The notes below the pieces were generated by a model, which was not told where the DNA came from, did no database searches, and worked only from the letters and a program-made list of their open reading frames with translations. Shown here in pieces: positions 25,632 to 29,565 of a stretch of 64,000 nucleotides of DNA; the first letter of the stretch is position 1, and each line of letters begins with the position of its first letter. This stretch comes from Candidatus Desulfofervidus auxilii. Its GTDB lineage: Bacteria; Desulfobacterota; Desulfofervidia; Desulfofervidales; Desulfofervidaceae. Both the position numbers and the translations under genes were made by a program. The stretch is taken from NCBI RefSeq assembly GCF_001577525.1, contig NZ_CP013015.1, positions 2,468,656 to 2,532,655 on the forward strand, written 5' to 3'.

Positions 25632-27197
25632 ATGTCTTTAAGTAAACCAAATCACAGTGCAGCCACGCTCACGGTTACCCGGGTTACACCAGTTCCCTCT
25701 TCTGGTATTTGTGTAACTTGTGTGGAAGGATGTGAAGGTCCTTGTGAAATCGGGAGGTCAGCCCTTAAAGGAGAAGCTGCTATCTATCCCCTTCCATTTG
25801 GAGCCATTAGTGCAGGAGCAGAAAAGGATTATCCTGTTGATTTTTCCCATTTTAACATTCAGGGCACCTGTGTGGGGGCCGTTGGGATAGAACCAGACCC
25901 TGACAAAGCCACTTTTCCTGTAGTGGATGTTACTACTGAAATTGGCTTCAAAGATAAAATAAAAATTAGATTCCCAGCATTTGCAGGAGCACTGGGATCT
26001 ACCGAGATTGCCAGAAAATATTGGGACACTATGGCTATAGGAGCTGCTATTTGTGGAACACTAGTTATAGCAGGTGAAAATATCTGTGGGATGGATCCTG
26101 AAGCAGAGATAAAAAATGGAAGAATTGTGCGAGCTCCAGAAATGGAAAAACGCATTAATTTATTCAAACGCTGGTGCGAGGGATATGGGGATGTAGTAGT
26201 GCAATTGAATGTAGAAGATACCAGATTAGGGGTGGCTGAATATGTAGTTGATAAATTAGGTGTGGACTTTATAGAGCTCAAATGGGGACAGGGAGCAAAA
26301 AATATAGGTGGTGAGGTAAAATTACCCACTTTAGAAAGGGCATTACAGTTAAAAAGAAGAGGCTATATTGTCCTCCCAGACCCTGAAAACCCTTCTGTGC
26401 AAGAGGCCTTTAAAAGAAGGAGTTTTAAAGAGTTTGAAAGGCACTCCCGCTTGGGTATGGTGAGTGAAGAAGCCTTTTTAAAAGAGGTAGAAAGATTAAG
26501 GAGTTTGGGAGTAAAATTTATTTCTCTTAAAACAGGCGCTTATAGACCGGCTGATTTGGCTAGGGCAGTTAAGTTTTCCTCAGAGGCCAAGATTGATTTA
26601 TTAACGGTAGACGGAGCTGGAGGAGGAACAGGAATGAGTCCTTGGAGGATGATGAATGAATGGGGTATTCCTACAGTTTATATTGAAAGTTTATTGTATA
26701 ACTACTGTAAACGGCTGGAGGAAAAAGGGGAATATATCCCAACCTGTGCTATTGCTGGGGGGCTTTCTTTAGAAGACCATATTTTTAAAGCACTTGCCTT
26801 AGGGGCTCCTTATGTAAAACTAGTATGTATGGGCAGAGCAATCATGACAGCAGCTATGGTAGCCCATACCCATGGTCGGTTGTTAAAAGAAAAGGTAGAA
26901 ATGGAAGGAGAGGATTTAGAAGATAAGGTATTGGAGCTATTTTCTGGTGCTTATAAATTGAAACAAAAATATGGTGATGCCTTTGCAGAGATTCCACCAG
27001 GAGCGATAGGGATGTATACTTATTTTTTAAGGTTAAAACAAGGCTTACAGCAGCTTATGGCAGGAGCAAGAAAGTTTGCCTTAAAATATATCTCCCGCGA
27101 AGACTTAATGGCATTAACTAGGGAGGCTTCTGAAGTTTCTGGTATACCTTACCTCATGGATGCAGATGCAGAAGAAGTAGAAAAAATTTTAGGTTAA
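25632..27197 (+). CDS. FMN-binding glutamate synthase-like barrel protein with N-terminal Cys4 motif
   Basis: 521 residues. The body (about 150-470) is the FMN/synthase TIM barrel of the GltB family: KWGQGAKNIGGE, FISLKTGAYRPADLA, TVDGAGGGTGMSP and CAIAGGLSLEDHI. There is no glutaminase (GATase) domain and no 3Fe-4S cysteine set of GltB. Instead residues 27-38 carry C-x2-C-x3-C-x3-C (CVTC..GC.GPC), a probable Fe-S site. It heads a four-gene operon with two ferredoxins and an AOR, so it may be a flavin electron-transfer partner instead of a glutamate-forming enzyme. The reaction is unknown. Confidence 0.8.
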   Translation: MSLSKPNHSAATLTVTRVTPVPSSGICVTCVEGCEGPCEIGRSALKGEAAIYPLPFGAISAGAEKDYPVDFSHFNIQGTCVGAVGIEPDPDKATFPVVDVTTEIGFKDKIKIRFPAFAGALGSTEIARKYWDTMAIGAAICGTLVIAGENICGMDPEAEIKNGRIVRAPEMEKRINLFKRWCEGYGDVVVQLNVEDTRLGVAEYVVDKLGVDFIELKWGQGAKNIGGEVKLPTLERALQLKRRGYIVLPDPENPSVQEAFKRRSFKEFERHSRLGMVSEEAFLKEVERLRSLGVKFISLKTGAYRPADLARAVKFSSEAKIDLLTVDGAGGGTGMSPWRMMNEWGIPTVYIESLLYNYCKRLEEKGEYIPTCAIAGGLSLEDHIFKALALGAPYVKLVCMGRAIMTAAMVAHTHGRLLKEKVEMEGEDLEDKVLELFSGAYKLKQKYGDAFAEIPPGAIGMYTYFLRLKQGLQQLMAGARKFALKYISREDLMALTREASEVSGIPYLMDADAEEVEKILG

Positions 27198-27209
27198 GGA
27201 GAGCAAGCG

Positions 27210-27419
27210 ATGCTAAAATTAATTTGTCCTCAAAATTGTAAAAGGTGTTTTTGTGAACCTATTTGCGTCCTAGGGGCCATTATTGCCCAAGCAGGTTCAA
27301 TTTATGTAGAAACAGATAAGTGCATTGGTTGTGGTACCTGTAGAAGAATATGTATTACTTTCAGCTTAGATAAAGCCCTCAAAGACAAAACAGAAGATTG
27401 GTTGAAAGGTGTGGCTTAA
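27210..27419 (+). CDS. Small ferredoxin-like Fe-S protein
   Basis: 69 residues, cytoplasmic. The C-terminal half has a standard CIGCGTCRRIC cluster motif. The N-terminal half has five Cys (CPQNCKRCFCEPIC) that could hold a second cluster in a non-standard spacing. GGAGAGC lies upstream of the ATG. Its stop codon runs directly into the AOR start, so it is likely an electron carrier or subunit for the AOR at 27420. Confidence 0.85.
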   Translation: MLKLICPQNCKRCFCEPICVLGAIIAQAGSIYVETDKCIGCGTCRRICITFSLDKALKDKTEDWLKGVA

Positions 27420-29210
27420 ATGGAAGTCTGGAAGGGACAATTCGCACGAATAGATCTGACTCATAAGTCCTTTAAAATAGACACCTTACCTGAGAGCCTC
27501 TTAAAAGTCTATTTGGGTGGCCGAGGTTTAGGTGTAAAGTTATATTTTGATGAAGTAAATCCTGAAATTGACCCTTTGGATGAGGATAATAAGATAGTAA
27601 TTGCCGCTGGGGCACTTTGTGGCACTGGGGCCTCAGGTGCAAGCATGGCTAGTGTGGTCACTAAGTCGCCCCTCACTAATACTATTTGCTGTGGAAGAAT
27701 TAGAGGATATTTTGGGACAGAGTTAAAATTTGCTGGTTTTGATGCAGTTATTATTGAAGGTAAGGCAGAACATCCGGTCATTATATTTATCTCTCATCAA
27801 CGTATTTCCATCAAACCTGCTTTAGAATATGGACAGCAAGTTACTTCAAAAACAGAAAAGATGATTAAAGAAGAATTGAATGATAGATGGAAGGCGCTAG
27901 AGTCTTTTATTCTATCTGTTGGTCCAGCAGGAGAAAATAAAGCAAATTTGGCTACGCTGGTAAGTGATGGCCTTCTCTTAGACGGAGGGGCCGGAATTGG
28001 GGCTATTTTTGGAGCAAAAAATCTTAAGGCTATTGTTATTAGTGGTTCCCAAGATGTTACTGTAAATCAAGGAGAAAAGTGCCTGCAGTCTATTCTTACC
28101 TTAAAAAATAAATTTAACACTTCACCTTATACTAAAGAATATCTGCCTAATATAGGCAATGGATTTTTGTTGGACATTTGTTTAGATAAAAAGGCCTTAC
28201 CAGCAAATAATTTTAAGTCATCTGCCCAAAAGATACCCAATCTAGATGGGGACGGGATTAAAAATTTTACTCAGAGGAGGAGGGCTTGTTTTTCTTGTCC
28301 TATAGGGTGTATCCGGTTTAGTTTAGAAAAACAAAGGATGTTGTATCTTGATTATGAAAGTATGGCTGGTTTTGGTTATCTTTGTGGAATAAAGACAATT
28401 GATAAGATTGCTGAATTGAGGTATCTGTGCACTGAACTTGGGCTTGATGTCTTAAATACTGCTTCAACTATAGCTTGTGCGATGGAATTAAGTGAAGAAG
28501 GGATTTTAAAAGATGTCTCACTTTCTTTTGGTAGTGAAGACATAGAAAAAATCATAAAACAAATAGGAAAAAATAAAGGATTTGGAGCAGAGATAGCCAA
28601 AGGAGGAGCACATCTGGCTAAAGCCCTAAATAGACCAGATAGGTTTATGGGGGTAAAAAATAGTGCCATCCCTCCCTTTGAACCAAGAAAATTATGGGGT
28701 TTTGGGCTTCATTTAGCTACTTCTAACAGTGGGGCTTATCATCTAAATGGATTCACTATTATAGAAGAGCTTTTAGGCATCCACCAGGTAGTGGAGCCTT
28801 TTAAATATCAAGATAAACCAGCCCTAGTAAAGCAAATCCAGGATACCATGGCTGTATTAGATGCCCTGGGATATTGTGTTTATATCTTATTGGCCCTTAA
28901 ATTAAACAATATTTTGCCATTTTATAAATTTTGTTTTAATACTGAGGTAAATATTCAAGAATTACTTAATCTTGGAGAAAGAATCTGGAATTTAGAAAGG
29001 ATTTTTAACATAAAGGCAGGCATTGATTATAACGATGATGTTTTGCCTAAAAGGTTTACCCAAGAAGCCTTAGAAGGAAATGTTTGTCCTTTAGACCAAA
29101 TGCTTCCTGTTTATTATCAGGAAAGAGGATGGGATAAATGGGGGAAACCAAAGGAAGAGATATTAAATAGATTGGGATTAAAAGATGCAAAGGATAAAGA
29201 TAGACCCTAA
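27420..29210 (+). CDS. aor: Aldehyde ferredoxin oxidoreductase family protein (tungsten/molybdenum-pterin)
   Basis: 596 residues, full length. The N-terminal pterin domain begins with YLGGRGLGVKLYFDE and has SPLTNTICCGRIRGYFG. The middle domain has the cluster motif ACFSCPIGC (about 291-299), and the fourth Cys is in DALGYC (about 485-490), where most AORs have GLC. DYESMAGFG carries the conserved Glu region and TELGLD is the other pterin loop. The family oxidizes aldehydes to acids, or the reverse, with ferredoxin. Substrate is unknown. It sits between two ferredoxin genes. Confidence 0.92.
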   Translation: MEVWKGQFARIDLTHKSFKIDTLPESLLKVYLGGRGLGVKLYFDEVNPEIDPLDEDNKIVIAAGALCGTGASGASMASVVTKSPLTNTICCGRIRGYFGTELKFAGFDAVIIEGKAEHPVIIFISHQRISIKPALEYGQQVTSKTEKMIKEELNDRWKALESFILSVGPAGENKANLATLVSDGLLLDGGAGIGAIFGAKNLKAIVISGSQDVTVNQGEKCLQSILTLKNKFNTSPYTKEYLPNIGNGFLLDICLDKKALPANNFKSSAQKIPNLDGDGIKNFTQRRRACFSCPIGCIRFSLEKQRMLYLDYESMAGFGYLCGIKTIDKIAELRYLCTELGLDVLNTASTIACAMELSEEGILKDVSLSFGSEDIEKIIKQIGKNKGFGAEIAKGGAHLAKALNRPDRFMGVKNSAIPPFEPRKLWGFGLHLATSNSGAYHLNGFTIIEELLGIHQVVEPFKYQDKPALVKQIQDTMAVLDALGYCVYILLALKLNNILPFYKFCFNTEVNIQELLNLGERIWNLERIFNIKAGIDYNDDVLPKRFTQEALEGNVCPLDQMLPVYYQERGWDKWGKPKEEILNRLGLKDAKDKDRP

Positions 29211-29565
29211 TAAGTGCACAGGCTGTCGCCAGTGTGAATTGGCTTGTTCCTTAAAACATAAAGAAAATACGGTTAATCCAAGGCGGGCACGGATTAGGGT
29301 GTTTAAAGTAAATGGCTATTTTATTCCTGTAATTGCTGGACAGTATACTGATGCTGCCTGTAACACCAAATGTGTGGTTGATACCCAGTGGGGATTGATT
29401 GACTTATGCGTAATCTGTAGGGCTTCCTGTCCTCAAAAACCTGTTTTTTACGAGCCTGATACTGGTTTTCACTTAAAATGTGATTTTTGTGGAACACCGC
29501 CTAATCCTACTTGTGTTAAGACTTGCAATTCCGGGGCATTAGAACTTATTGAATGGCCTGAATAA
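29185..29565 (+). CDS. Multi-cluster 4Fe-4S ferredoxin (AorA/HycB-like)
   Basis: 126 residues with many Cys: CTGCRQCELAC near the start, a single pair in AACNTKC, CVICRASC, then CDFCGTPPNPTC..TC. The pattern resembles four-cluster electron-transfer subunits that accompany AOR and molybdenum enzymes. ATG 29185 overlaps the AOR gene by 26 bp, implying coupling and probably a complex. A terminator follows. Confidence 0.88.
   Translation: MQRIKIDPNKCTGCRQCELACSLKHKENTVNPRRARIRVFKVNGYFIPVIAGQYTDAACNTKCVVDTQWGLIDLCVICRASCPQKPVFYEPDTGFHLKCDFCGTPPNPTCVKTCNSGALELIEWPE

Follow-up and report, generated by a model that had tools for sequence, protein, structure and literature searches.

A glutamate synthase-like FMN protein and its ferredoxin encoded beside an aldehyde oxidoreductase in Candidatus Desulfofervidus auxilii: a possible link to nitrogen metabolism

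Introduction

What could join a flavoprotein related to glutamate synthase (GltS) to an aldehyde oxidoreductase (AOR) is the question raised by four genes in a 64,000-nucleotide stretch of the genome of Candidatus Desulfofervidus auxilii, a bacterium of the sulfate-reducing type (contig NZ_CP013015.1, positions 2,468,656 to 2,532,655), hereafter referred to as the window. The open reading frames, all on the + strand (25632-29565), code in this order for a GltS-like FMN-barrel oxidoreductase (the FMN protein), a 69-residue ferredoxin (Fd69), an AOR and a ferredoxin-like AOR small subunit (Fd4). Their tight spacing, described in an original prediction made from the DNA sequence alone, was borne out: 12 nt separate the FMN gene from that of Fd69, the Fd69 and AOR genes abut (0 nt), and the start of the Fd4 gene overlaps the end of the AOR gene by 26 nt. 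The reading proposed here, to which a probability of about 0.45 is given, is that the products of the operon are a GltS-like FMN reductase under nitrogen regulation and its dedicated ferredoxin Fd69, wired in this lineage to an AOR and a three-cluster small subunit.

Genomic context of the FMN gene

At least 583 close relatives of the FMN protein were confirmed in candidate stretches of the genome collection, and a match to it (E≤0.001) was obtained in 203 of the 297 phylum genomes sampled, the weakest of these matches not belonging to the FMN family. No name or characterised member was found for this family. The ferredoxin Fd69 (27210..27419, + strand; 69 aa, Pfam Fer4), recognised as such in the original prediction, contains nine cysteines, with space for two [4Fe-4S] clusters. 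In all 11 phylum genomes with an Fd69 match (E≤1e-8) its gene lies directly beside the FMN gene, and since it was found only there, this constant partnership argues for a ferredoxin dedicated to the FMN protein.

The strongest contextual signal, which the original prediction had missed, is nitrogen assimilation. It comes from 111 FMN loci, which are related to each other, so that the counts do not represent independent events. At least one nitrogen or glutamine gene (NrpR, GlnA, GDH and HisF, identified by Pfam, or GltS GATase, PurF, NadE, CarA/B, Amt and PII, read from their sequences) is present in 65 of these loci (59%). NrpR is the most frequent (26 loci), followed by GlnA (15), HisF (11), the GltS GATase (9), PurF and NadE (8 each), GDH and CarB (7 each); Amt and PII were encountered as well. 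Such genes occupy 16-21% of the slots one or two genes away from the FMN gene on either side, compared with 4-7% at a distance of three or four genes, which served as a within-locus control; the rate is raised at slot +5 too, owing to the NrpR genes that come after NuoEFG operons. The partner switches between lineages: Chloroflexota have NrpR/HisF, family f30 has GlnA/NadE, Aerophobota and f26 have CarAB, and f68 has Amt/PII/GltS. Such turnover speaks against a single arrangement having simply been inherited. In the nearest relative (L008), NrpR is located immediately 5' of FMN-Fd69-AOR-Fd4 (the NrpR family was identified on L033). Both this gene order and the concentration of nitrogen genes next to the FMN gene support the proposed reading. 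The literature yielded no paper naming the FMN protein and none linking NrpR, GltS and AOR, which, given the thin coverage of subscription journals, is weak evidence.

Compared with Fd69 and the nitrogen genes, which are the constant features of the FMN loci, the AOR is an optional partner. Of the 111 loci, 20 have NuoE/NuoF, mostly in place of the AOR, and 18 have the AOR set, two of the 18 being second copies of the same genome. In Desulfacinum infernum (L009), the FMN-Fd69 pair occurs with no AOR. That the donor genes vary while the FMN gene and Fd69 stay is a further argument for the reading advanced here. On the conservation of the FMN gene and the AOR as neighbours in relatives, the original prediction was borne out in the genomes of one subclade; throughout the family, however, the AOR is not constant. 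The order FMN-Fd69-AOR-Fd4, in fixed orientation, is shared by the window and 16 further genomes (17 in total), so the association is not due to chance. All 17 AOR-linked sequences (window included) in a tree built from 110 FMN proteins belong to one 46-member clade (support 96), within which the linkage requires several gains or losses; AOR-linked and NuoE/F-linked proteins are each clustered.

The main rival explanation holds that a nitrogen-regulated transcript carries the genes of two separate enzymes, the FMN protein and Fd69 performing nitrogen chemistry and the AOR-Fd4 pair passing electrons from aldehydes into the ferredoxin pool at large, and the two would form no direct complex. Such independence would agree with the occurrence of most FMN genes without an AOR, with an AOR-Fd4-HdrA set lacking the FMN gene in the same host genome (L128), with related AORs elsewhere in many genomes and with loose gene spacing in relatives. 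Against it stand an order and orientation fixed in 17 genomes and the finding that every phylum genome with an AOR at least 53% identical to that of L024 (5 of 5) has it next to the FMN gene; at lower similarity, this is true of the AORs of the window and G136 alone. Two separate enzymes are therefore regarded as a serious, if rather unlikely, explanation.

The aldehyde oxidoreductase and its small subunit

The AOR (27420..29210, + strand; 596 aa), a WorL-type tungsten (molybdenum) bis-pterin oxidoreductase, is full-length, with Pfam matches to AFOR_N (205 bits) and AFOR_C (318 bits), and is closer to the Pyrococcus AOR (1aor, E 3e-118) than to BamB (3.5e-45). The cluster ligands CxxCxxxC...C (Cys 290/293/297/486) are kept, and a residue check found the catalytic Glu313 and His441 retained. 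Judging from its family and these two residues, the protein is predicted to bind a tungsten (or molybdenum) bis-pterin and to oxidise aldehydes; the preserved Glu and His, together with the GltS signature of the FMN protein, are counted among the grounds for the proposed reading. The GYC at the fourth cluster cysteine, to which the original prediction had drawn attention, proved to be ordinary variation, GLC, GIC, GFC and GYC all being found at this site among homologues. Fd4 (29185..29565, + strand; 126 aa, Pfam ferredoxin domain), a small subunit of the WorS/BamC type, does overlap the AOR gene, but the four clusters ascribed to it do not stand. It has 13 cysteines, and the closest match among solved structures is BamC (4z3w_E, 6e-28; also AorA, 8c0z_C, 2e-17), a subunit holding three clusters (PMC13328260); Fd4 is therefore predicted to accommodate no more than three [4Fe-4S] clusters.

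Where the AOR is present, the operon frequently extends into HdrA, with HdrC and NuoE added in L013, L015/L161 and L156, and NuoF seen in L156; the window and L008 have no HdrA/HdrC/Nuo tail. It is this continuation to HdrA, HdrC, NuoE and NuoF (L013, L015, L156, L161), as in Bam-type class IV tungsten oxidoreductases (WORs), that would favour a single flavin-bifurcating complex, with the FMN barrel as the flavin that couples ferredoxin, the tungsten-pterin and another carrier. However, coupling in those relatives could sit in HdrA or NuoF, neither of which follows Fd4 in the window; moreover, no nucleotide-binding domain was found in the FMN protein by Pfam, and most members of its family have no AOR, HdrA or NuoF nearby. 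A bifurcating complex seems improbable, and the flavin-based coupling by the FMN barrel suggested in the original prediction gained no positive support.

Each of the six HdrA copies checked in AOR operons (L013:7938, L015:4957, L021:6067, L023:4397, L024:12449, L031:4620) has one in-frame UGA at NDC(A/S)xU, a probable selenocysteine codon. The AOR of L015 (G120) is likewise interrupted by an in-frame TGA; selenocysteine was rejected here, since the site is not a Cys position, and the TGA is probably an assembly error or the mark of a broken gene. The host genome (G000, 2.54 Mb) encodes seven AOR-family N-terminal domains. A second AOR system (L128:7139-18001, 1.557-1.568 Mb of the host genome) comprises an AOR, a small subunit, HdrA-like proteins, 2-oxoacid oxidoreductase genes and a shortened 448-aa AOR, followed by HdrC/HdrB-like genes; the shortened protein, without the conserved His region, is a degenerate AOR within an oxidoreductase operon.

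Relationship of the FMN protein to glutamate synthase

The FMN protein (25632..27197, + strand; 521 aa, preceded by a ribosome-binding site) matches the Pfam family Glu_synthase (PF01645) with 60.6 bits (cut-off 20.4) over residues 276-397 only. Profile comparison with the FMN subunits of true split GltS (GltB2) detected similarity over residues 109-405 (probability 98%, E 1.1e-13), and the GltS signatures E215-x-K217-x-x-Q220-G-A-K223...GG, DGxGGTGxxP and GG376-377 are kept. The structure predicted by AlphaFold (AF2) is a barrel (predicted local distance difference test score, pLDDT, 79.6; predicted template modelling score, pTM, 0.83), for which structure comparison returned FMN-type TIM barrels at Z of about 24. 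Its neighbours in the fold search are hydroxyacid oxidases, IDI-2 and IMPDH; GltS is not among them, which excludes nothing. The family profile gave just low-value matches to de novo TIM barrels among solved structures, and phmmer with the FMN protein matched no GltS in PDB, whereas the GltB2 of the host does so at E of about 1e-52.

Among 33 homologues (mean column identity 76%), the only invariant cysteines are those of the N-terminal motif C27-x2-C30-x3-C34-x3-C38, which are probable [4Fe-4S] ligands. Neither the glutaminase (class II, GATase) nor the GXGXG domain was detected by Pfam in the FMN protein or its operon; the original prediction had thus been right about both the motif and the missing glutaminase. 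The [3Fe-4S] ligands of GltS have no counterpart either: the FMN protein contains no Cys beyond residue 399, and its alignment with GltB2, in which Cys417/420/426 are invariant, ends just ahead of the GltS [3Fe-4S] loop. With respect to the definition of GltS by FMN plus [3Fe-4S], glutaminase and beta-helix (PMC8097209), the FMN protein has the FMN part only. A complete split GltS (454, 493 and 867 aa) is present in the host genome some 0.5 Mb from the window operon, the 867-aa protein carrying GXGXG and sitting with the real GltB2. Because the [3Fe-4S] ligands are missing and a complete GltS is encoded elsewhere, the FMN protein is, as far as can be judged from its sequence, a distant, uncharacterised relative of the GltS FMN domain and not an ordinary glutamate synthase, in agreement with the original prediction. 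That it is an ordinary split GltS short of its glutaminase subunit, as the PF01645 match and the GltS genes adjoining the FMN gene in L027, L033, L141 and L147 could imply, is highly improbable in view of the absent cysteines and GXGXG, the separate host GltS and the phmmer result.

The split GltS of the host is part of a same-strand run (L123:5872-15276, 1.970-1.979 Mb of the host genome) of NrpR, HdrC-like, FlpD/MvhD-like and MetF-like genes, which suggests an Hdr-type electron supply to GltS.

Proposed mechanism

According to the reading of a GltS-like FMN reductase wired to an AOR, the proteins would act as a physical complex, under nitrogen regulation in the host. An aldehyde would be oxidised at the tungsten- or molybdenum-pterin of the AOR, and electrons would pass from its [4Fe-4S] cluster through the three clusters of Fd4 and the two of Fd69 to the N-terminal [4Fe-4S] cluster of the FMN protein, then to FMN and finally to a substrate of nitrogen metabolism, most likely an imino or 2-oxo acid such as 2-iminoglutarate. 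The donor would be interchangeable, the NADH module NuoE-NuoF-NuoG serving the FMN-Fd69 pair in other lineages.

Several observations weigh against this scheme. The homology to GltS is remote and the [3Fe-4S] site absent, so the chemistry of the FMN protein may differ from that of GltS, and the host already possesses a split GltS near NrpR. In the host, NrpR itself is not adjacent to the window operon but 0.5 Mb away, and the NrpR operator GGAA-N6-TTCC is absent upstream of the operon. A close homologue of the FMN protein is missing from four genomes of the family to which the host belongs. Gaps of 100-460 bp separate the genes in several relatives, where co-transcription is therefore not certain. 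Finally, the position of Glu313 is occupied by Leu, Met, Trp or Thr in the AORs of L010-L013, L020-L024, L031, L052 and L154-L157; the replacement of this residue in most relatives hints at another substrate, so the AORs may not all act on the same compound.

No riboswitch exceeding a gathering score was found upstream of the window operon. A palindrome, TTAG-N5-CTAA, was noticed 5' of the FMN genes in L042, L055, L058, L061, L067, L070, L074, L079 and L138, often where a RecA-like/helix-turn-helix (HTH)/cupin regulator adjoins the FMN gene. It occurs at 21 sites in 978 kb, 11 of them closest to an FMN gene and 3 to such a regulator, and is a possible operator; it is not present before the FMN gene of the window.

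If the FMN family, present in at most 203 of the 297 genomes sampled from the phylum and in hundreds of others, assimilates nitrogen, it would add a further route to those of GDH and GltS, one in which the electron donors are exchanged as modules. A group of AOR-Hdr operons also gains, in the FMN-Fd69 pair, a partner open to testing and, in nitrogen limitation, a physiological context. A bolder and decidedly speculative extension is that the family represents new, ferredoxin-linked, glutaminase-free flavoenzymes reducing ammonia or amino nitrogen, widespread in anaerobic bacteria, one lineage of which draws electrons directly from a tungsten AOR, so that aldehyde oxidation would pay for nitrogen assimilation.

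Apart from the genes discussed above, the host genome contains two apparently identical 401-aa genes (L124:8040-9245 and L129:8044-9249; the first 110 residues are the same) resembling an IS110-type transposase.

Comparison with known systems

With the FMN domain of GltS (GltS alpha or split GltB2) the FMN protein shares the FMN TIM barrel, the ExKxxQGAK...GG and DGxGGTGxxP motifs and a context of nitrogen genes. Unlike GltS, it has its own N-terminal C-x2-C-x3-C-x3-C motif and its own 69-aa ferredoxin, and lacks the [3Fe-4S] ligands, the glutaminase and GXGXG.

The AOR half of the operon resembles both class II WORs (WorLS) and Bam-type class IV WORs (PMC13328260, where glutamate synthase is not mentioned) in combining a large subunit with a ferredoxin-like small subunit, which has three clusters as in BamC, and the operons of relatives go on with HdrA, HdrC, NuoE and NuoF as in class IV. 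In the same source, class II is defined by a WorS with four [4Fe-4S] clusters, class III by an FAD subunit and class IV by NuoE/F/G-like subunits. The small subunit adjoining the window AOR is of the three-cluster, BamC-like kind; no WorABC (NuoE/F/G-like) genes follow in the window, NuoE/NuoF being found in some relatives; and there is no gene for the FAD/NAD subunit WorN of class III between 25.3 and 29.9 kb. The AorABC of Aromatoleum, a class III enzyme, likewise combines an AOR and a small subunit of the ferredoxin type (8c0z_C), whereas the flavin-carrying protein of the window operon would be a TIM barrel from a different family. By these definitions the AOR pair, predicted to consist of a WorL and a BamC-like small subunit, fits none of classes II, III and IV, and it differs from the WORs of classes II and IV in being preceded by the FMN-Fd69 pair.

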